64,000 nucleotides of DNA from Deltaproteobacteria bacterium (lineage in GTDB: Bacteria > Desulfobacterota > Binatia > UBA9968), in NCBI GenBank assembly GCA_016210115.1, contig JACQUW010000419.1, positions 1-64,000 on the forward strand, written 5' to 3'. The notes beneath the pieces were generated by a model that worked only from the letters and a program-made list of their open reading frames with translations, had not been told where the DNA came from and ran no database searches. Within the stretch, counting starts at the first letter, position 1. The number at the start of each line of letters is the position of its first letter. Below are positions 20,375-60,918 of this stretch, piece after piece. A program made the translations under genes and the position numbers.

Positions 20375-21634
20375 TCAACTGACCCGGGCATGCAACTCGT
20401 GCCAGGCGAAGCTCTCTCGGACTGTGACGTAGGAGATCGCAAACGAGAAGAGCACGAAGACAAAAGCCCAATAGTAGGAGCCGCTCAGGTCGTAAATGGC
20501 GCCTCCCAGCCACGCGCCGAGGGCCATTCCCAGGCCAAAGCTGACTTCGACCAAACCATAAATCGTTCCCACCTGCGGGCCGCTGAACAGGTCTGCAATC
20601 ACCGCTCCGTAAGTCGGAGTGCCCGCGCTGTGGCCGATGCCGTAAAGGATGCCAATGGCATATATGATCCATAACGGTGACCGCGGGCTTACGGCCAGAA
20701 AACAGGCGACACCTGCGAGAGTTATAAGGATCGAAATCCAGTAGGTCTTGATACGCCCCAGCCGGTCGGAAACCATTCCCCAAAAAAGAGTTCCGCCGAT
20801 TCTCATGAAACCGATCAGGCCAAGGACAAACGCGCCGGCAAGCGTCTCGAACCCCTTATGCGCGAGATAGGCTACCAGGTGAGTGTAAATCACGTAGATT
20901 CCCGCGCCGAGGCAGAAATGGCCGGCGGTGAGAATCCAGAAAGGATAAGACCTCAGGACAGAACGGACCGTCCAGGCGCGCGCGGAGGCTCTCACCCCAT
21001 GAGATTGCGGCCGCTCGCCTGGATCCAATGGGTCTCCGTCGGCGAATTCTCCGATGTCTTTTGGATCGCGCCGGAGCAAAACCGCATTGGGAATCACGAT
21101 AACGATGAGCACCAGGCCGCCTAAAAGCATAAAAGCAGAGCGCCAGCCCACGCCTGTAATCAGGACCTGGGTCAGAGGGACAATGATCAACGTGCCGACT
21201 CCCTGGCCCATATTGGCCAGACCAATGGCGGTGGCCCGCCGCTTTAGAAACCAATGCGAGATGAGCGCGCTGTGGCTAACAAAACCGAGCGCTCCATGAC
21301 CCAACGCAGCCAGGATGCCGTAGCAAATATAGAGCTCCCACAGAGAATGGCTCAGGCCCGATAGAAAAAGACCAGTTCCAAAAGCAAGACCGCCCAGAGG
21401 AATGAGATAGCGCGGGCCGAAGGCATCGAACGTCCATCCCACCAGCGGCGAAGCCAATGCGTACACGAGCGAATTGATCGATACGATGCTGGCGCCGGTT
21501 GCATGCGACCAACCAAACTCCTCCAGAAGCGCGATGTAAAAGACGCTGAAGGATGCGACGGCTCCGCGCACGCAGAGAAGATTGACAAAGCACAACGCCA
21601 GAATCACGTAGCCGTAAAAGAATCGCGCGCGCAT
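20375..21634 (-). CDS. MFS transporter (monocarboxylate/oxalate-formate porter type)
   Basis: A 419-residue, 12-helix transporter: RARFFYGYVILALCFVNLLC, FSVFYIALLEEFGWSHATGA, WTFDAFGPRYLIPLGG (loop 2-3 motif) and WFLKRRATAIGLANMGQGVG (loop 4-5). The C-terminal half has FWGMVSDRLGRIKTYW and SGSYYWAFVFVLFSF. It is similar in pattern to the transporter at 18333-19586 and probably carries a carboxylate. I use ATG 21634; a TTG at 21643 is possible. It is divergent from the EamA transporter gene. Confidence 0.88.
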   Translation of the reverse strand: MRARFFYGYVILALCFVNLLCVRGAVASFSVFYIALLEEFGWSHATGASIVSINSLVYALASPLVGWTFDAFGPRYLIPLGGLAFGTGLFLSGLSHSLWELYICYGILAALGHGALGFVSHSALISHWFLKRRATAIGLANMGQGVGTLIIVPLTQVLITGVGWRSAFMLLGGLVLIVIVIPNAVLLRRDPKDIGEFADGDPLDPGERPQSHGVRASARAWTVRSVLRSYPFWILTAGHFCLGAGIYVIYTHLVAYLAHKGFETLAGAFVLGLIGFMRIGGTLFWGMVSDRLGRIKTYWISILITLAGVACFLAVSPRSPLWIIYAIGILYGIGHSAGTPTYGAVIADLFSGPQVGTIYGLVEVSFGLGMALGAWLGGAIYDLSGSYYWAFVFVLFSFAISYVTVRESFAWHELHARVS

Positions 21635-21736
21635 AGCGTACAACTTCAGAATCGATTCGGACGTCCGCGGCCCTCTCCCTTACGCCGTTCGGCCAAGGTG
21701 AAAGCTGCCTGCCCGTTTGGAGAGCCCGCGCATCCG

Positions 21737-22837: not shown

Positions 22838-23290
22838 TTACTCGGGATGGCTTCCGGAGAGCGGTCTGAACTTGGGAAGGAAAACCCCCTGCCTCGCCTC
22901 TTCGAAAACAACCTCCACGTCCATGCCGATCGCGACCTGGTCCGCGGAACATTCCACCACGTTGCTGCAAAATCGCGGCCCCTCATCAAGATCGATCCAT
23001 GCTGTGACGTAAGGGATGTCTCGCGCGAATCCCCGCAGAGCCCGGCCCACGACCTCGCGGATCACCGTGAAGGCGAAAACTTTTCCGTGGCCGCTCAGCG
23101 GAGTCCATCGAAGATTTTCGCTGCCGCATTCTACGCATGCGGGGCGGGGGCACCAGATCCAAGAGCGGCAGGCGCTGCAGCGCTGCATGACGAGCTTGCC
23201 TTTAGCCGCAGCTTCCCAGAAAGGTTGAGTGACGGGAGTGATCTCGGGCAATGGTTTTCTTATTTCTCTCTCGGGTGTTGCCATAGTCAT
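22838..23290 (-). CDS. DUF35-type zinc ribbon/OB-fold acyl-CoA-associated protein
   Basis: A 150-residue protein: PVTQPFWEAAAKGKLVMQR leads to the rubredoxin-like zinc ribbon (CSACRSWIWCPRPACVECG), followed by an OB-fold (GKVFAFTVIREVVGR, YVTAWIDLDEGPRFCSNVVE, MDVEVVFEE). Such proteins partner with thiolase-like proteins and are thought to present acyl-CoA or acyl intermediates. It overlaps the stop of the upstream thiolase-like gene by four bases (ATGA), so the two are translationally coupled and probably form a complex. Confidence 0.92.
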   Translation of the reverse strand: MTMATPEREIRKPLPEITPVTQPFWEAAAKGKLVMQRCSACRSWIWCPRPACVECGSENLRWTPLSGHGKVFAFTVIREVVGRALRGFARDIPYVTAWIDLDEGPRFCSNVVECSADQVAIGMDVEVVFEEARQGVFLPKFRPLSGSHPE

Positions 23291-24480
23291 ATCTCTTTTC
23301 CCAAAATTGCGGCAGCCGTACAGCCGAAATTTTTTCCATAATTCACCGCCCCGAGACCGGTCACGAGGCCGATCTTGGCGTCTGGCACCTGGCGCGCTCC
23401 GCCTTCTCCTCTGAGCTGGCGCACCGCTTCAATAACGTGGAGCATGCCGCCTGTGGTCGAAGGCTGCCCGCAGTTAATCATTCCCCCGCCGGTCTGGATC
23501 GGAAGATCCCCTTTGATCGTAAAATCGGTTTTCTCGAAAAAGGCGCGGTCGTTCTTTCCGCAGAAGCCCAGGTCTTCAATCTGCAGCATAATGACCGGGA
23601 CATAATCGTCATAGAGACCAAGAAAATCGATGTCGGTTCGGGAAACGCGGGCCATGGCAAAGGCAATGTTACCGGATTCTCTTATGCCCGTGATCAGGGG
23701 ATTCGCGTGAGATTGAGGCCCGGCGCTCGCATTGTGGCGCTCACCCCAACCGAGCAGATAGACGGGTGGTTTGCGGAAGCTTTTTGCGCGCTCAGCCGAG
23801 GCGACGATATAGGCCTTGCCACCGTTCGCCGGCATAACGCAGTCGTAGAGCCGGATCGGATCCGAAATCAGGCGCGCGCTTTTGTATTCTTCGAGCGTCA
23901 AGGGCTTTCTCAAATAGGCATCGCGATTTAGCGTCGCATGATACCGCGCCGTAACCGCAACTTTTCCAAAGTGATCAGTGGTCATCCCGGACTCGTGCAT
24001 GTAGCGGCTCATGACAAGCGAGATCTTGCAGTTGGGCCCCATAACGCCAAAAGGCATCTCAAAGTCACGGGTATCCGCCGGCTCGGCCCTGCTCCGGCCA
24101 TGCTCGCTGAAAGGCGCCGCGGCAGCCACGCAGAGAACAAGATCGGCAATTCCGGAACTCACCACGGCCGCGGCGTGCCCCAACAGGGAGACCGCGCTTG
24201 CTCCTCCGTTTCCTCCGGCGAGCGCCACGCCCGGCGAGATTCCCAAAATAGCGGCCACCTCCTCCGGCCAGAACGGCTGTGAGTGATTGGTCGTGTAAAT
24301 AGCCGCAAGCCCCTGCCCGTTAAGGTCCTTTTTCGTGAGGCCCGCGTCTTCGAGGGCAAGGCGGACGGCCCAGACAAGATACTCGGACGTGATCTTTCGC
24401 GACTCACCCGGTTTTCTGCCGAGCCGGTCTACCGGCGTTTCTCCGATGCCGATAATCGCTGCTTTTCCTCTAAGGCTCAT
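23287..24480 (-). CDS. Thiolase-like (SCP-x/lipid-transfer type) protein
   Basis: A 397-residue thiolase-fold protein: AAIIGIGETPVDRLGRKPGE, LVWAVRLALEDAGLTKKDLN, and a C-terminal half with GGMINCGQPSTTGGMLHVIE and LGAVNYGKNFGCTAAAIL. At the place of the usual nucleophilic Cys it reads ALAGGNGGASAVSLLG, so ordinary thiolysis may be replaced by a retro-aldol type or scaffolding role, as in thiolase-like partners of DUF35 proteins. GGAG precedes the ATG. It forms an operon with the DUF35 gene. Confidence 0.9.
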   Translation of the reverse strand: MSLRGKAAIIGIGETPVDRLGRKPGESRKITSEYLVWAVRLALEDAGLTKKDLNGQGLAAIYTTNHSQPFWPEEVAAILGISPGVALAGGNGGASAVSLLGHAAAVVSSGIADLVLCVAAAAPFSEHGRSRAEPADTRDFEMPFGVMGPNCKISLVMSRYMHESGMTTDHFGKVAVTARYHATLNRDAYLRKPLTLEEYKSARLISDPIRLYDCVMPANGGKAYIVASAERAKSFRKPPVYLLGWGERHNASAGPQSHANPLITGIRESGNIAFAMARVSRTDIDFLGLYDDYVPVIMLQIEDLGFCGKNDRAFFEKTDFTIKGDLPIQTGGGMINCGQPSTTGGMLHVIEAVRQLRGEGGARQVPDAKIGLVTGLGAVNYGKNFGCTAAAILGKEI

Positions 24481-24606: not shown

Positions 24607-26847
24607 TTAGCTTGTTGACGGAACTTTGATCCTTGTGTCCCAGAGAATCCCTTCGCCGCCGAGACTCGGCGCGAAGAGATCTACCTGCACCTGCGTGGCG
24701 CATCCAGGACAGAAGTAGACGTGGTACTCGCCGATATAAGGCTCGCCGGACGGCAGGGGATTAGGCATAAAGTCGTTTAGATCCACGACGCGGTGCAGCG
24801 CGTAGAGCTTGTAATTTTCGTCCGCGCTGCAGAACAGATGCCCGCAGCGGTTGCACCGGATCACGGATCGCTTTCCTCCCTTAACGATTTCGAGCGTCGC
24901 ATTGAACCGCACTGCCGTTTGCCACTCGCCGTTTCCTTCTCCATCCAGCGAGCTCGTCCTCCCTGAAGGAGGCGCTCCCTGGCTCCGGCGCGTCTCGCGG
25001 ATCTCTTGCCTTCGCTCCGCAGTCGCCTGTTCCTCAACGCCGTCCTCTGTTTCATTGAAAATCACGCCATAGATCCGCTCAGCGGTCTCACGGCTTAACC
25101 ACCCTCTGCGGTAATCACCGAGCACCGCCTCCGGCTCCCGGTCTATAGGATCGCCGAAGCCGCCTCCACCCGCGACATAGTCGACAAGCAGACTTCCTTC
25201 AGGCAACGCGATCCTCTCGGGAACGCCCTGGGGATGGTACATCTTACCCCATTCTCCAGAGCGGATTGCGGACACTTCCGGGTATTCTCCCCTCCTGACG
25301 CGTTCGAGCATTTCGAGACCCGTCTGTGCCATCAGCCGCATCGAGCCGATTCCCGTCGGATAGCCACCGGAAAGGCCGAACCCGCCCTGCGCCAGACCGC
25401 CATACGGTTTGTAGTCGACGCTGCAGTCTTTAGAGCCGTAAACAAGGTAGATCCGATAACTTCCCAGACCTCCCCGGAATTTCCCAAAGCCGCTGCCGTC
25501 GCGATTGTGTCCCCGGGTAAAGTAAAGAAACGGGTATTGCATCTCAATCCATTCGATGTCGGTGATGCCGGCCGAGGGGATGTTCATGTGCCCCCCTGAA
25601 TTGACCCCATCGCGGTAAGGCGCCGCGCCCATGCCCGCGCCGTGGATGTCGTAAAGACCCTGCGCGACTCTTATTCCCTCGCGCGTGTGCCCCCCGTAAA
25701 AGTATCCCGGACCGCCGACGAATTCGAGATTGCCGGTCGTGGAACCGTTAACATCCTCGTCACGGCCCGCGGCGTAAAGCATCTTCGCCACGCACTCGCA
25801 CACGGTAGAGACGAGCACGTTGCCGATCCGAGGACCGGCGCCGCAGGCCGCCGGAAACCGGCAATTTAAGATCGTTCCCTCGGGAACTGAGATCTCTACC
25901 GGGCGCATTTTGCCATCGCTCCAGGGAACGTTCCAAAAAAGCGTATTGGTCAGGGCCAGAGCAATGTGAGCAATCGTGCTCGGCAGGGTCGAATTGTGAT
26001 CGGTGTCGGTCTGGGGACTGGTGCCGGAGAAATCGAAATGAAGCCTGTCTTTCTCTTTCACCATCGTGCAAAAGAGCTGCTGGGCCACTCCCTTACGGGT
26101 CTTGCGGTCCAGAGTGGTCACGTACTGGCGCGCAACCCACGTCCCGTCGGGCATAGAGCGCAGCTTTGCCCGCGCCTTGTTCTCCGAGTCCTCGATCATC
26201 TTTTCGCCCGCGGCACGCACAAAACTCAGGCCGAACTTCTCGACCAGACCGAGATAACGCTTGGCGCACACATTGTTTCCGGCGATCATCGCCTTGAGAT
26301 CGAGCCCGACATATTGCGGGTCCCGGCACTGGCCGGTCAGCGTTTTAAAGACATCCTCGCGGAATTCTCCCCGCTCGACCACCTTGAGCCCTGGAATGCA
26401 GATTCCCTCATGGTAGATTTCGTAGGCTTCGCCGCGCAGGAGGCCGCCCGTATCGGCGGTATGCGTGCTGGTGGCGGTCCAGGCGATAAGCTCGTTCCGG
26501 TAAAAGATGGGTTTGACCACCATCATGTCGTACGTGTGGGAGCCCGCGATGTACGGGTCATTGAAGAAGATCTGATCCCCGTCGTAAAAACCGGGCGATT
26601 TGCCGAACCACTGGATCAAGCTGTGGATGGCGTCGGATGTAGCCGCCGCGAACCTGAGATGTCCGGAGCAGGCAAGCACCATGGTTCCCTTTTCATTATA
26701 AAACGAGCTCATGCATTCCCCGCCCTGCGAAACAATCGGGGAAGCCGTAACCCGCTGCAGGGTCATTCGCCCTTCCTCGCCAATGGCCCAAAGGCGGTGA
26801 AAAAACATTTCATAACGGACTGGATCTACAGCCGCGACTTTTTTCAT
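24607..26847 (-). CDS. HyuB-type carboxylase/hydrolase subunit fused to an acetone carboxylase gamma-like zinc domain
   Basis: Residues 1 to about 560 are hydantoinase B/oxoprolinase-like (acetone carboxylase alpha family): VRYEMFFHRLWAIGEEGRMT, YDGDQIFFNDPYIAGSHTYD and GFGKFRGGLGSYRIYLVYGS are conserved stretches, and VDYVAGGGGFGDPIDREPE is the family's end motif. After a low-complexity linker, the last 100 residues form a separate zinc domain with C-NR-C-GHLF-C (Cys665, 668, 673) and FCPGC (Cys713, 716), matching the gamma subunit of acetone/acetophenone carboxylases. Such fusions make ATP-dependent carboxylases plausible. GGGAG precedes ATG 26847. The HyuA-type partner lies just upstream. 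Confidence 0.88.
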   Translation of the reverse strand: MKKVAAVDPVRYEMFFHRLWAIGEEGRMTLQRVTASPIVSQGGECMSSFYNEKGTMVLACSGHLRFAAATSDAIHSLIQWFGKSPGFYDGDQIFFNDPYIAGSHTYDMMVVKPIFYRNELIAWTATSTHTADTGGLLRGEAYEIYHEGICIPGLKVVERGEFREDVFKTLTGQCRDPQYVGLDLKAMIAGNNVCAKRYLGLVEKFGLSFVRAAGEKMIEDSENKARAKLRSMPDGTWVARQYVTTLDRKTRKGVAQQLFCTMVKEKDRLHFDFSGTSPQTDTDHNSTLPSTIAHIALALTNTLFWNVPWSDGKMRPVEISVPEGTILNCRFPAACGAGPRIGNVLVSTVCECVAKMLYAAGRDEDVNGSTTGNLEFVGGPGYFYGGHTREGIRVAQGLYDIHGAGMGAAPYRDGVNSGGHMNIPSAGITDIEWIEMQYPFLYFTRGHNRDGSGFGKFRGGLGSYRIYLVYGSKDCSVDYKPYGGLAQGGFGLSGGYPTGIGSMRLMAQTGLEMLERVRRGEYPEVSAIRSGEWGKMYHPQGVPERIALPEGSLLVDYVAGGGGFGDPIDREPEAVLGDYRRGWLSRETAERIYGVIFNETEDGVEEQATAERRQEIRETRRSQGAPPSGRTSSLDGEGNGEWQTAVRFNATLEIVKGGKRSVIRCNRCGHLFCSADENYKLYALHRVVDLNDFMPNPLPSGEPYIGEYHVYFCPGCATQVQVDLFAPSLGGEGILWDTRIKVPSTS

Positions 26848-26890
26848 CACTTTCTCCCTAACCCTCATGTTTCGGTCTCGTTGAGCTTTC

Positions 26891-29002
26891 TCAACCCACC
26901 TCCATTACAAGATTCATATAATGATCCACGGTGACCTTGAATCCCGGCGGCACAAGAGTCGTCGTGAAGGGCAGCTCGATCACCGCCGGTCCCGTGACCC
27001 GCGCTTCCGGCCCCAGGAGAGCATAGTCGTAAACCTTCGTCTCAATGAGTTCCCGCATGGGACGGGTAAAAAAGACCTTGCGCTTTCCCTTGACGGCGGA
27101 GGCCGCCCTGGAATTTTTGGCCCTGCGCGCCTTCAGCTGAGGCTTGGCAACCAACCCTACGGCATCTACCCTGAGAGCGCTGATTTCTATTCCGGCTTTG
27201 GTGTAACCCGCGCCCACCCCGTAAAGCTCCTCGTATTTTTTCTCAAAGCTCGCCTGAAGCTCAGCCATGCGCTTGTTCGAGAGGCGATCCCATATAACGG
27301 GGAGCTCGACGCCCGCGGTCTGGCGCCGGTAGCGCATGGTAAAAAAGCACCTGAACTCGATCTGACCGCGCTTGAATCCTTCTCCCACCATCGTTTCCAT
27401 CAATTCTTTTTCGATCGATTCGAGTCTCTGGTTGACGACTTCAGGATCAGTCGGAAGAACGTACTGGCAACTCATCACCCGCGTGTGGATGACGTCCGCG
27501 GCGGCGACTCCGAAAGCGGAGAAGACCGGAGAGGTCGAAAAGATGTAGATCCTTTTCACGCCCAACTCCGCGGCGAAGCCGGCGGCGTGAACCGGACCGG
27601 CGCCGCCGAACGCGTAGATCACGAACTCCTCAGGCAAGTATCCAGTCCGCACCACCTGCCGGCGAATCAGGTCCGACATTTTGGCGTTGACAATGTCGTA
27701 AACACCGGCGGCGGCCTCGACGGCGTTCATTTTTAGCGGGCGAGCGATGTTGGCTTCGATCGCTTTACGCGCCTTCTCCAGGTTGAGGACCTTTTTTCCA
27801 CCGAGAAAATAATTCGGGTCGATGATGCCCAGCACCAGGTCGGCATCGGTTACGGTCACCTCTTCGCCGCCGGAGTCATAGCAGACCGGCCCCGGGCTTG
27901 CGCCGGCGCTTTTGGGTCCGACCAGGAGACGTCCGGTCTCAGAGTCAACCCGAGCAATCGTGCCGCCGCCGGCGCCGATGGACTCGATATCGATAATCGG
28001 CTGCAGTATTCGAAAACGCTCGACGATCGGTTCCTGCGCGTATCTCCAATAGTTCTCCGTGATCAGACCCACGTCGAAACTCGTTCCTCCCATGTCGGTG
28101 GTGATCACGTTCTTGTGGCGGAGCAAACCGGCAACATAGGCTGACGCGATCATCCCTCCCGCCGGACCCGATTGGAGATTGGCAATAGCGCTGACATGAT
28201 CTTTGTGCGCTACGCCCCCGTTTCCCTGCATGATCAGCAGCGGCCCTTGAAGGTTCGCGGTTTGCAGGCTCTTTTGCAGGTCACCGAGATAGCGCTCGAC
28301 CGTGGGACCAAGATAACTATTGATGATGGCCGTATTGGCGCGGGCGTATTCTCCTGCAACCTGCGATAACGCGCTTCCAAAAGTCCAGTAGACTCTCTTT
28401 GACGGGTCGGCTTCCAGAGCAAGACTCCGGATCTGTTCCTCGTGGGCGGGGTTGGCCCAGGCGTGAAGGAGGCTCACGGCAATGGCGTGAACGCTTTCCT
28501 CCTCGATCAGACGGCGGATCGCTTCCATGACGTCCGCCCGGTTCAGGGGAGTGATCTCCTCGCCCCAATAAGTCATCCGCTCGCGGACGCCGATGACGCG
28601 TTCGCGTGGAACAATCGGCTCCGGCTTGGTTACATAAGTGACGTGCCGTATCTCTTCTTCTGAAAGTCCGTCCACGCGGCCGATGGCGCGCATGATCTCG
28701 GTGGTGTCTTCAAATCCCTTGGTCGTGATAAAGCCAACCTTAACGCCACTGTGCGTAATAAGGGCGTTGGTGGCCACCGTGCTGCCATGCTTGAAAAGAG
28801 ACGTGCGGCCGAGAAGTTGCGACCTCTCAATGCCGACCACCCGCGCCGCCTCTGAAAGAGCGTCCATCACGCCCCGGGAGAAATCATCAGGAGTCGTGGG
28901 GGCTTTCGCGGTCCACACCTCGCCGGCTCCGCTCATCACAACCACATCGGTGAAAGTCCCACCGGTGTCCACGCCGACTATGTACTGCTGCTGTGCTGCC
29001 AT
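26891..29002 (-). CDS. HyuA-type subunit (acetone carboxylase beta/hydantoinase A family)
   Basis: A 703-residue ASKHA-fold ATPase subunit. VGVDTGGTFTDVVVMSG is the phosphate-1 loop, VITTDMGGTSFDVGLI the phosphate-2 loop, and VIYAFGGAGPVHAAGFA the adenosine motif. KHGSTVATNALITHSGVKVG and QGNGGVAHKDHVSAIANL are family landmarks. It should supply ATP-driven phosphorylation of a carbonyl substrate or bicarbonate for the partner subunit. The gene runs into the HyuB-gamma fusion with a 43-base gap, one operon. With an adjacent thiolase/DUF35 pair, a ketone-carboxylating pathway is reasonable but not proven. Confidence 0.93.
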   Translation of the reverse strand: MAAQQQYIVGVDTGGTFTDVVVMSGAGEVWTAKAPTTPDDFSRGVMDALSEAARVVGIERSQLLGRTSLFKHGSTVATNALITHSGVKVGFITTKGFEDTTEIMRAIGRVDGLSEEEIRHVTYVTKPEPIVPRERVIGVRERMTYWGEEITPLNRADVMEAIRRLIEEESVHAIAVSLLHAWANPAHEEQIRSLALEADPSKRVYWTFGSALSQVAGEYARANTAIINSYLGPTVERYLGDLQKSLQTANLQGPLLIMQGNGGVAHKDHVSAIANLQSGPAGGMIASAYVAGLLRHKNVITTDMGGTSFDVGLITENYWRYAQEPIVERFRILQPIIDIESIGAGGGTIARVDSETGRLLVGPKSAGASPGPVCYDSGGEEVTVTDADLVLGIIDPNYFLGGKKVLNLEKARKAIEANIARPLKMNAVEAAAGVYDIVNAKMSDLIRRQVVRTGYLPEEFVIYAFGGAGPVHAAGFAAELGVKRIYIFSTSPVFSAFGVAAADVIHTRVMSCQYVLPTDPEVVNQRLESIEKELMETMVGEGFKRGQIEFRCFFTMRYRRQTAGVELPVIWDRLSNKRMAELQASFEKKYEELYGVGAGYTKAGIEISALRVDAVGLVAKPQLKARRAKNSRAASAVKGKRKVFFTRPMRELIETKVYDYALLGPEARVTGPAVIELPFTTTLVPPGFKVTVDHYMNLVMEVG

Positions 29003-34279: not shown

Positions 34280-35071
34280 TCAAGGCTTCCTTTCGGTCCT
34301 ATACGGTTCGTAAACCAGATTGGGCTTGATCGCGGCGTCGATATTGCGCGCCATCGGATTGCGCATCTCCTCGGCAATGTGAGCCAGAGCCCCTAGTGTT
34401 CTGCCGATTAGAGCGAAAGCTTTCGTTATTTGCCAGGGAAGCCCCATGTCCAGGGCGGTGGCCGCAATGGCTCCCGTGACGTTGATAGGCAACCGGCGAC
34501 CGTGTTTTTGCTCGGCGGCTTTGGAAATATGCTCCAGCAGCTGGCAATAACGCCCGTAAACTTCACTATCACGCGCGATCTGGAACAGACGATTCGCCCG
34601 CGGGTCGCCTTCAGCGTGCGTCCGATGGCCGATGCCGGGAAGCCGCTGCTTTCTTTCGTCATAGCGATTGACCACTGAAGCGGCGAGGGCGTCGAAATCG
34701 ACCTCTTTTGTTTCCCGGGGCAGCGCCTCCTGGAGCATTTTTGCCGACCACTCCGATGACCCCAGATGCACGCTTCCCGCCCCTAATATGGCAGCGGCGA
34801 CGGCGCCCTGGATCGCCTCCGGAGCCGTGTGATAGGTAAGCCGCGCTGTGACGGCGCTGGAAACCATCCCGTGCTCTACCAAAATGGTCAGCAGAGCGTC
34901 AGTCATACGGACTTCACCGGGACCTGGAAGCCGGCCCAGCAACAGCAAGAAAGCCATTTGGCTGAAAGTAATTTTTCCGACCAGCTCTTCATTCAGATCG
35001 TAGCCGCAGACCAGGATCCTGTGAAGCTCTGCCTTGCCCAGGCCGGTCACAATTCTGGGTTGTTTGCTCAT
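34280..35071 (-). CDS. Citryl-CoA lyase-like protein (citrate synthase fold)
   Basis: A 263-residue short member of the citrate synthase superfamily. The C-terminal active-site motif LPGIGHRTHAEGDPRANRLF parallels citrate synthase GxGHxxY...DPR, and INVTGAIAATALDMGLPWQI matches the CoA-binding/dimer region; an N-terminal part of the large domain (GKITFSQMAFLLLLGRLPGP) is also present. This size and set are found in citryl-CoA lyases and related C-C lyases that split a hydroxyacyl-CoA into acetyl-CoA and a keto acid. AGGAGG stands before ATG 35071. A binding-protein gene follows 19 bases after its stop, so both form an operon. Confidence 0.85.
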   Translation of the reverse strand: MSKQPRIVTGLGKAELHRILVCGYDLNEELVGKITFSQMAFLLLLGRLPGPGEVRMTDALLTILVEHGMVSSAVTARLTYHTAPEAIQGAVAAAILGAGSVHLGSSEWSAKMLQEALPRETKEVDFDALAASVVNRYDERKQRLPGIGHRTHAEGDPRANRLFQIARDSEVYGRYCQLLEHISKAAEQKHGRRLPINVTGAIAATALDMGLPWQITKAFALIGRTLGALAHIAEEMRNPMARNIDAAIKPNLVYEPYRTERKP

Positions 35072-35418
35072 TGCAATCCTCCTATCTCTTTCCAAAATAG
35101 CCTTGGAGAGGAAATATTACAGCCATCGCATTTTGCACCTGCGGTCGTCACTCCTAACCGCCGTCTGCGTCCCAATTGGTTGCCCGTTTCGCTACTCCAA
35201 AGGAAGAGTATTGTCAAGATTGTTTTTCCAGCAACGCTCCGGCCAACCGCCTGGAGCCGGCCCTCAAAGCTGTTGCAGAAGCAAGGTGATTCAAGCTAAA
35301 TTGACCGCCAAAAGAGTCGGGTTATTTCGCCGCAAAACCGGCGCGACATCCGTCAAAATTTCTTGCCTCGCGGCACCCCCAAGAGGCCGCAGGCCAATGA
35401 CTGCAAAGGAGACTTCCC
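35072..35418. promoter_or_regulatory. Divergent promoter region
   Basis: The 347 bases separate the lyase (minus) and M24 (plus) genes. On minus, TTGACA (35217-35212) is followed after 17 bases by TAGCGA, a moderate sigma-70 candidate for the lyase operon. No clear promoter stands out for the plus gene, and no gene is seen. Confidence 0.35.
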
Positions 35419-59397: not shown

Positions 59398-60918
59398 TCA
59401 AGGGGCGGGTGCTGGTATCGTATCTGCTGTGGACAAAGGACTCGGCAAGACAATCGGGGTTAAAAAAACCATGAGCTGACTCTTATCCTCCTTCTTCTCC
59501 GTGCGTTTGAAAAACCATCCCAGAACAGGAATATCCGAAAGCACCGGAATCTTATCAACGTTATTTGTGGTGTCTTCCCGCATGAGCCCGCCGACTACGG
59601 CGGTCTCCCCTTCTTCAACAAGAGCCCGGGTATAGATGGTGCGACTGATGAGCGGAGGATTTCCCTCAATGGCGTGCGCAAAATCAGCTTCCTTCCGCCC
59701 TACCACCACATCCAGGGCTATAGCCTGTGAAGGCCCGTTTTTGATCACATGAGGCGTCACCTCGAGCTCGATGGAGGCTTGTTTGAATTGGATTGTAAAA
59801 GTGGAAATCCCCGTGGCGCTGACAGAGATGTTACGAAAGGGAATCTCCTGGCCGCTCTCGATCCAGGCCCGCTCGTGATTCATCGTGGTGAGCCGGGGAG
59901 CGGCAAGAAGCCTGAGCTTGCCCTGTTGTTCCAGCGCCGAGATTTGGACGTCCAGAACTCTACTCGCCGTCCTCCCGAGTGTAAAGCCGAAAGAGCCGCC
60001 GGGTCCCGTAAGAGGAATATCGGCTGGTAGGTTCACGATAAAATTGTTGCCGCTGAGTCCGACCGCTCCGCTCTGGGGAGCGGTGGGAGGAGTGCCGCTG
60101 GTGGATCCCAAACCGCCGCCCTGGAAGGCCGCGTCGCCGAATCTAATTCTCCCGCCCCATTGCACTCCCAAATCCTTCAGCGCCTGAGTGGTCACTTCGA
60201 CGATCCTTGCCTCTATTCCAACGGTCTCGTTCGGCACATCGATCGTCTGGATAACCGCCACGATCTCTTCGACCTTTTGCGGGACGTCGGTAATGACCAA
60301 AGCATTGAGACGGCTGATCGCGCTGACGTCGGAGCCGGGCCGGCCGCTGAGTCGCTTTCTCAGCAGGTCAGCCAGCTCCGTGAGATCCTTGATTTGCCTC
60401 CCGCTGACGTTCACCTCACGGCCAACGGCTGAAATCGAATCTCGAGGGTTGAAGGCATACCTGATCTCAACCTTCTGCGTAACTAGCGGAGGAGGAACTT
60501 CCACTGTCGGCGCGGGAGCGATAGCGGCAAATTGCTGCAACCGCGCCTGATAAGACTGAAGAGGAAGGATCTCGATGATATCCCCCGGTCCCGGAATCAG
60601 GAGGAGCCCATTGGCTCTTGCAATCCCCTGGAGCGCCTCTCGCAGCGGGACATTTCGGAGCGTCAGGGTGATTTGTCCCTTTACGTCTTCGTGCACCAGC
60701 AAGTTGAGCTTGGATTGCTCTCCTAAGGCACGGAGCAAAGGTTTGATGTCTGCATCGCGAAGGTCCAGCGAGATTGGAGTATCGGGTACGCGGGCGATTG
60801 CGGATTCTTCGAGGCTCTGTGCCGGCTGCCGCGTCAGGTCGGCCGCCCACGTTGGAGTGAAAGAGGCAACAAAGAAAGCACAGATGCTGGTTTGTATGAG
60901 CTTAGTTTTAAAGGCCAT
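59398..60918 (-). CDS. pilQ: Type IV pilus secretin PilQ
   Basis: A 506-residue secretin: signal peptide (KLIQTSICAFFVASFTPTWA/AD), an STN/N0 domain (SLDLRDADIKPLLRALGEQS, LTLRNVPLREALQGIARANG), an N1-type domain (NALVITDVPQKVEEIVAVIQ) and the secretin core (LRLLAAPRLTTMNHERAWIE, VGGLMREDTTNNVDKIPVLS, GWFFKRTEKKEDKSQLMVF). It forms the outer-membrane pore for the pilus. AGGAG precedes the ATG. It lacks AMIN domains usual in Proteobacterial PilQ, so it is closer to short MshL/GspD-type secretins. Confidence 0.96.
   Translation of the reverse strand: MAFKTKLIQTSICAFFVASFTPTWAADLTRQPAQSLEESAIARVPDTPISLDLRDADIKPLLRALGEQSKLNLLVHEDVKGQITLTLRNVPLREALQGIARANGLLLIPGPGDIIEILPLQSYQARLQQFAAIAPAPTVEVPPPLVTQKVEIRYAFNPRDSISAVGREVNVSGRQIKDLTELADLLRKRLSGRPGSDVSAISRLNALVITDVPQKVEEIVAVIQTIDVPNETVGIEARIVEVTTQALKDLGVQWGGRIRFGDAAFQGGGLGSTSGTPPTAPQSGAVGLSGNNFIVNLPADIPLTGPGGSFGFTLGRTASRVLDVQISALEQQGKLRLLAAPRLTTMNHERAWIESGQEIPFRNISVSATGISTFTIQFKQASIELEVTPHVIKNGPSQAIALDVVVGRKEADFAHAIEGNPPLISRTIYTRALVEEGETAVVGGLMREDTTNNVDKIPVLSDIPVLGWFFKRTEKKEDKSQLMVFLTPIVLPSPLSTADTIPAPAP

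Follow-up and report, generated by a model that had tools for sequence, protein, structure and literature searches.

Organization of the HyuA/HyuB-gamma locus

The window examined in this study, a stretch of 64,000 nucleotides from a Deltaproteobacteria bacterium (GenBank assembly GCA_016210115.1, contig JACQUW010000419.1), carries on its minus strand adjacent genes for a HyuA-like protein and for a HyuB-like protein extended by a gamma domain, which together probably form an ATP-dependent carboxylase. Genomes, loci and contigs are labeled G, L and C, respectively, the window lying on contig C378 of genome G000. Subunits are named as in Weidenweber et al. 2017 (PMC5214803), with alpha for the HyuA-like kinase, beta for the HyuB-like subunit and gamma for the small zinc subunit; in Mus et al. 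2017 (PMC5543143) the HyuB-like subunit is named alpha instead. The two genes and the parts of the fusion are the following.

26891..29002, minus strand: HyuA, alpha (ASKHA kinase) subunit, 703 amino acids (Pfam Hydant_A_N, Hydantoinase_A and Hydant_A_C)
24607..26868, minus strand: HyuB-gamma fusion, 753 amino acids (Pfam, trees)
25147..26826, minus strand: Hydantoinase_B (beta) domain, residues 15-574 (Pfam)
24964..25146, minus strand: C-terminal arm of beta, residues 575-635 (alignment with ApcD, to its residue 648, and AcxA, to its residue 695)
24667..24894, minus strand: gamma zinc domain Acetone_carb_G, residues 659-734 (Pfam)
24844..24855, minus strand: first gamma zinc pair, C672-x-x-C675 (motif conserved in relatives)
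24700..24711, minus strand: second gamma zinc pair, C720-P-x-C723 (motif conserved in relatives)

Transcription runs from HyuA through HyuB-gamma to a thiolase-like gene and a DUF35 gene. HyuA and HyuB-gamma are separated by 22 bp and HyuB-gamma and the thiolase-like gene by 126 bp; between the thiolase-like and DUF35 genes there is a 4-bp overlap. Judging by the N-termini of orthologues and a GGAG-like site, HyuB-gamma probably starts at Met8 (approx. position 26847). A scan for promoters and terminators gave no more signals than shuffled sequence.

HyuB-gamma scored 347.7 bits against Hydantoinase_B (cut-off 26.8) and 30.8 bits against Acetone_carb_G (cut-off 21). Residues 663-731 matched the gamma chain of acetone carboxylase in the PDB (phmmer, E 2.5e-4), and a short low-complexity linker (approx. 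residues 636-655) precedes the gamma domain. The fused frame was found again in relatives with identities of up to 81-84%, and the CxxC...CPxC signature of gamma was kept in 41 of the 42 fusions of the clade to which the window protein belongs (the focal clade), the exception, L111, looking frameshifted at its end. The fused frame is therefore not a chance artefact. The gamma zinc domain which the preliminary description had placed at the HyuB C-terminus behind a low-complexity linker is thus borne out by Pfam, phmmer and recurrence in relatives. The closest PDB chains of both proteins belong to acetophenone carboxylase, namely 5l9w_A for HyuB-gamma (E 6.8e-58) and 5l9w_B for HyuA (E 4.6e-124).

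The HyuB part groups with acetone and acetophenone carboxylases

A HyuB tree was calculated without duplicate loci and without rows of fewer than 480 aligned residues; the careful trees comprised 32 and 35 chosen rows. In the 32-row tree all nine rows of the focal clade grouped together (support 100/100). This clade was sister to the rows of acetone carboxylase (Acx) and acetophenone carboxylase (Apc) with a support of 99/98, apart from caprolactamase and methylhydantoinase, and the Acx rows formed a clade of their own with Apc as sister. The node uniting the focal with the Acx/Apc rows was recovered (100/99) after addition of four plasmid relatives (35 rows). Constraining the focal clade to group with hydrolase-type HyuBs lowered the log-likelihood by 50 (approximately unbiased (AU) test, p 0.0004); constraining it to group with Acx without Apc lowered it by 9.5 (p 0.024). 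On the strength of the sister placement and both constraint tests the focal HyuB is assigned, by its sequence, to the carboxylases, yet to neither Acx nor Apc proper. Placement among hydantoinases or oxoprolinases, named beforehand as the outcome that would speak against a carboxylase, was thereby examined and did not come out. What tree and AU test reject is the hydrolase as a phylogenetic placement, not as an activity.

According to PMC5214803, hydantoinase-type complexes are devoid of gamma, and acetone and acetophenone carboxylases possess it. The traits of hydantoinases, oxoprolinases and lactamases (two subunits, no gamma, placement in the Hyd branch) do not describe HyuA/HyuB-gamma. Those of the Acx/Apc class were found, comprising a four-cysteine gamma, grouping of HyuB with Acx/Apc and ASKHA ATP motifs in HyuA.

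Conservation of the metal site, the ATP site and the gamma cysteines

Acx coordinates its metal through His150, Asp153 and His175, and nucleotide binding brings Glu89 into the site, as described in PMC5543143 and PMC10865871. The window HyuB has the same four residues in the corresponding alignment columns.

26716..26718, minus strand: E51, aligned with AcxA Glu89, metal gate
26536..26538, minus strand: H111, aligned with AcxA His150, metal ligand
26527..26529, minus strand: D114, aligned with AcxA Asp153, metal ligand
26461..26463, minus strand: H136, aligned with AcxA His175, metal ligand

The Glu89 column was read from 91 aligned HyuB rows, of which 88 had a letter and three a gap. Glu occupied this position in 48 of the 88 rows, comprising the whole focal clade (43/43), four of five Acx-clade rows and L120. 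Asp was present in the other 40, including ApcD, the caprolactamase subunit CapB and methylhydantoinase. The equivalents of His150, Asp153 and His175 were intact in 43/43 focal HyuBs, as was the complete Glu89/His150/Asp153/His175 set of Acx proper; methylhydantoinase carries Gln at the last His.

The ATP motifs of HyuA read DTGGTFTD (from residue 12), DMGGT (303) and GASPGP (367). The xxPGP signature of the latter was kept in 64 of 67 HyuA rows and was missing from AcxB and the Acx-type loci L125 and L126, while the Acx-type L127 keeps it. A PGP-containing adenosine motif, as in Apc and not as in Xanthobacter AcxB, gives a weak hint that the chemistry might be ADP- rather than AMP-forming. 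The C-terminal arm of beta and the four gamma cysteines were conserved in the focal clade; in Apc, as described in PMC5214803, this arm embraces gamma.

Distribution and architecture of the fusion

Acetone_carb_G was detected in 38 of 58 related genomes, with many matches inside frames of more than 700 amino acids. Among 297 genomes sampled from the phylum it was detected in 17, mostly in short separate frames. C-terminal fusions account for most arrangements in and around the group. In L141 (6088-8412), whose genome belongs to a different family within the phylum, the fusion is reversed, with an N-terminal gamma on a HyuB located beside a HyuA. Separate gamma genes follow HyuB in L120, L129 and L130 and precede HyuA in L131. 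Fusions are present in several HyuB clades and on plasmids of cultured bacteria, which together with L141 ruled out the fusion as a unique invention.

A distant fused relative on a Rhodococcus opacus plasmid (L144:3493-5802), whose HyuB is 40% identical to that of a relative, scored 21.5 bits for gamma, just above the cut-off, and has lost most of the zinc cysteines. This loss suggests that zinc would not be needed for catalysis there. The plasmid operon has the order short-chain dehydrogenase/reductase (SDR), HyuA, HyuB-gamma, SDR and acyl-CoA ligase. Such an order would fit a route from an alcohol via a ketone and a 3-oxo acid to a CoA ester, and resembles the logic of acetophenone degradation. 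The fusion on a Mycobacterium branderi plasmid scored 29.2 bits for gamma, that on a Niveispirillum plasmid was read by eye from the C-terminus and not by Pfam, and a haloarchaeal plasmid relative has gamma as a gene of its own.

Two copies appear damaged by assembly error or decay: one beta-gamma gene lies in two frames of 345 and 402 amino acids (L028:2379-4637), and the C-terminus of another is probably frameshifted (L111:5790-8099). The draft genome of the window itself (8.3 Mb) has a very large repertoire of 30 HyuB and 21 HyuA matches, some of them fragments.

One HyuA and several fusions per genome

The presence of the HyuA clade, defined by 62% identity or more, was read over 58 genomes. 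A HyuA of this clade was listed once per genome in 25 of them, all of which also have a focal HyuB-gamma. The fusion itself occurred in 28 genomes, and 30 had neither. Fusion-bearing genomes without the clade HyuA (G001, G009 and G031) are drafts of 200-880 contigs and 76-93% completeness. Co-occurrence was significant over all 58 genomes (Fisher p 1.9e-13) and over the 35 of the order (p 1.8e-5), both values ignoring relatedness. G026 and G030, which belong to the genus of G028 and are 97% complete, are devoid of the clade HyuA as well as of any focal fusion.

Since contamination of the draft genome G000 is estimated at 8.9%, the argument for sharing rests on G028 (one contig, 98% complete) and G033 (four contigs, 99% complete, contamination listed as 7%). 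G028 has 20 HyuB and 15 HyuA matches. For all 15 non-focal HyuBs a HyuA starts no more than 4.5 kb from the HyuB start; only one of the five focal HyuB-gamma genes is paired in this way, the other four being 7.4 to 122 kb away from any HyuA. G033, with 17 HyuB and 12 HyuA matches, gave the same picture, with 12/12 non-focal HyuBs paired, one of five focal ones paired and four at 8.4 to 370 kb. Each of the two genomes thus has one HyuA of the focal clade and five beta-gamma fusions.

In G013 (L026) the HyuA gene has a fusion on either side, one ending 20 bp before it and the other separated from it by one gene. The same order was found in G011 (L028), where one fusion is split. In G006 (L088) a fusion of a second type precedes HyuA, the contig ending soon after. 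Loci L140 and L141 of G091, a member of another family, each have their own HyuA, and sharing therefore looks derived. Genome content suggests that one kinase subunit HyuA serves several HyuB-gamma proteins. The earlier view of a complete carboxylase in two genes holds insofar as alpha, beta and gamma modules are all there; as a self-contained gene pair it does not extend to the many fusions without an adjacent HyuA. What is new is not so much the fusion itself as a single HyuA that several fusions seem to share, and no such system was found described for the Acx/Apc/Hyd family among the open-licence papers searched.

Genes adjacent to the fusion

Further genes of the window that belong to the neighborhood of the fusion are listed below.

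23287..24480, minus strand: thiolase-like protein, SCP2/Ltp2 type, 397 amino acids (catalytic Cys/His/His substituted)
22838..23290, minus strand: DUF35/ChsH2-type zinc-ribbon OB protein, 150 amino acids (profile and PDB matches)
34280..35095, minus strand: citryl-CoA lyase family protein, 271 amino acids (NF004868; presumed part of the system from its neighborhood)
20375..21643, minus strand: major facilitator superfamily (MFS) transporter, conserved downstream of the HyuA, beta-gamma, thiolase-like and DUF35 genes in several relatives

The thiolase-like/DUF35 pair adjoins the fusion as initially described. A thiolase-like gene adjoins the fusion or lies close to it in the window, in L025, L027, L081, L083, L086, L096 and L097, and also in L140 of another family. 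We take the catalytic residues of thiolases to be a Cys, the His of HDAF/NEAF and the His of GHP. The Cys was present in none of nine distinct members (0/9), and the HDAF or GHP His in none of the seven that were readable (0/7). The protein does not appear to be a normal thiolase, and thiolysis by it is unlikely because the catalytic Cys and both His are substituted; the proposal that it handles the product as a thiolase has to be abandoned. PDB relatives of the thiolase-like and DUF35 proteins include lipid-transfer-type pairs with DUF35, which are presumably aldolases. An Ltp2-type aldolase was considered for the thiolase-like gene and found half supported, as the position of Tyr294 is kept and that of Tyr344 is not (positions counted on the alignment, and roles of both residues in Ltp2 as we presume them).

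The citryl-CoA lyase gene of the window scored 293.7 bits against NF004868 (cut-off 193). The 58 genomes contain 34 copies above the cut-off, 24 of them in genomes with focal fusions and 10 in genomes without any. Eleven of the 24 lie within approx. 8 kb of a focal fusion, either upstream, directly behind a HyuA-linked fusion or directly behind a solo one; the remaining 13 are on other contigs. In L091 and L103 the solo fusion is followed at 3-4 bp by a CoA-transferase III gene. The thiolase-like, citryl-CoA lyase and CoA-transferase III neighbors point to a pathway in which the product of carboxylation would become a CoA ester and be cleaved or joined. Luciferase-like monooxygenase genes are located near the fusions of L026, L083, L086, L088, L091 and L103, as judged from neighbor clusters only. 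The neighbor table was based on gene clustering with codon scoring and left out L027. UbiD-family decarboxylase genes were seen near two beta-gamma loci (L102:1-1311 and L098:1-1563). Elsewhere in the window, a secretin gene of type II/III secretion was noticed at 59398-60918.

Discussion

HyuA and HyuB-gamma probably constitute an ATP-dependent, biotin-free carboxylase of a ketone, or of a similar enolisable carbonyl, belonging to the Acx/Apc class. The ketone carboxylase proposed in the preliminary description is favored by domain content, by the HyuB trees and by the Glu residue of the metal site, and none of these data points to a substrate. By analogy with Acx and Apc, HyuA would phosphorylate the enolised substrate and bicarbonate. 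The activated species would travel through the interior to a divalent metal at E51/H111/D114/H136 of the HyuB part, where the C-C bond would be formed to yield a 3-oxo acid, the identity of the metal and the product being presumed from Acx. Nucleotide binding in HyuA might be signalled to the metal via a mobile Glu, as with Glu89 of Acx; the residue is seen, its movement presumed. The gamma zinc domain, tethered behind the C-terminal arm of beta, probably plays a structural role.

Several observations weigh against such a carboxylase. HyuA formed its own clade and did not group with AcxB or ApcC, although its position in a quick tree of 67 rows was not firm. The second kinase subunit and epsilon, thought to be needed by Apc, are absent from this locus. 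The gamma match of 30.8 bits is weak, and an AlphaFold model of the fusion, built from five sequences, was too poor for use (mean pLDDT (predicted local distance difference test) 41). Glu at the gate also occurs in L120, which lies outside the clade and has a separate gamma, and the Acx-clade row L124 has Asp. The His/Asp/His ligands are found in hydrolases such as CapB as well, which leaves only Glu and gamma as discriminators. Finally, the AcxA Trp residues 401, 408, 438 and 479 near the metal are R, V, G and N in the window HyuB, and the pocket therefore differs. An ATP-dependent amidohydrolase of the hydantoinase, lactamase or oxoprolinase type, having acquired gamma only as a structural brace, could account for the metal ligands shared with CapB, for caprolactamase alpha as top NCBIfam score of HyuA (527.9 bits, cut-off 1000) and for a genome so rich in amidohydrolase-type enzymes. 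We regard it as unlikely, given the rejected grouping with hydrolase-type HyuBs, a metal site with Glu in place of Asp, and a gamma reported absent from hydantoinase-type complexes in PMC5214803. A less remote, if still doubtful, alternative retains the carboxylase chemistry and replaces the simple ketone by a 2-oxo acid, a steroid or terpenoid ketone or a CoA thioester, the product being processed by aldol or retro-aldol reactions of the thiolase-like/DUF35 pair (aldolase-type, as Ltp2/ChsH2), citryl-CoA lyase and CoA-transferase III. The proximity of 11 of 24 lyase copies in three arrangements, the 3-4 bp spacing of the CoA-transferase III gene, the likeness to the Ltp2 lipid-transfer protein/aldolase group and the missing Trp pocket speak for such a substrate. 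However, CoA-transferases, MFS and substrate-binding proteins are repeated in the window and its relatives, so that some adjacency is expected; 10 of the 34 lyase copies reside in genomes without the carboxylase, and the presumably catalytic Tyr344 of Ltp2 is not conserved.

Tentatively, the carboxylase may be organized as a 'hub', in which a single HyuA per genome works with interchangeable HyuB-gamma fusions, each acting on a different substrate. The many fusions that are located far from HyuA and have pathway genes of their own next to them (luciferase-type monooxygenase, CoA-transferase III, citryl-CoA lyase, TctC/TctA transport) could conceivably be such substrate-specific partners. The fusion would hold gamma and beta together, leaving only HyuA to be exchanged. 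Alternatively, unlinked fusions might need no HyuA or make use of unrelated ones, and the mismatch in numbers would be incidental paralogy. This explanation, which strikes us as rather doubtful, gains from the solo loci L084 and L090, where a HyuAB pair of hydantoinase type is located 4-6 kb off, and from some non-focal HyuAs that have two HyuBs next to them as well. It is hard to reconcile with the clade HyuA in 25 of 28 fusion-bearing genomes and in no genome alone, with its position in G013 and G011, where a beta-gamma gene stands on either side of it, and in G006, where one of the second type is its neighbor, or with the metal residues retained in solo copies.

Compared with known systems, the locus resembles Acx (AcxABC; PDB 5m45, 5svb and 5svc) in having one kinase subunit, one HyuB and one gamma, in the Glu/His/Asp/His metal set and in the zinc cysteines of gamma. 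It differs from Acx in low HyuB identity, the missing Trp cluster and the adenosine motif, which is divergent in AcxB (GYRVG) and GASPGP in the window HyuA. Acx proper has separate acxA, acxB and acxC genes, whereas gamma is fused here and a focal+Acx clade was disfavored. With Apc (ApcABCDE; PDB 5l9w), the closest PDB match of both proteins, it shares the length of the HyuB part, the C-terminal arm and GxxPGP. Apc proper has alpha prime in its operon (apcABCD); here a single HyuA stands beside HyuB-gamma with no adjacent alpha prime or epsilon, Glu replaces Asp at the metal, and gamma is fused. A separate, conventional apcABCD-like operon is present in G000 (L122, contig C294, 9638-16278) in the order alpha prime, gamma (124.9 bits), alpha and beta. 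CapAB and N-methylhydantoinase (PDB 6yra and 7hk5) belong to the same HyuA+HyuB fold family with its ATP motifs, and CapB has the His/Asp/His ligands; they lack gamma, have a shorter HyuB C-terminus and Asp at the gate, and joint placement in the tree was rejected. Mycobacterial acyl-CoA carboxylases, in which AccA3 serves several AccD proteins according to PMC4347857, likewise have one ATP-using subunit for several specificity subunits. This is an analogy only, as those enzymes are biotin-dependent and composed of unrelated proteins, and sharing is here read from genome content.

To our knowledge, only a small number of ATP-dependent ketone carboxylases that do without biotin have been studied, and in each of them the alpha and beta genes are matched. 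Distant fused homologues on the Rhodococcus opacus and Niveispirillum plasmids provide cultured entry points. If the proposed sharing is true, the fused beta-gamma clade with its shared kinase would represent a natural mix-and-match carboxylation platform, on which one could examine directly whether the choice of substrate is determined by beta-gamma alone.

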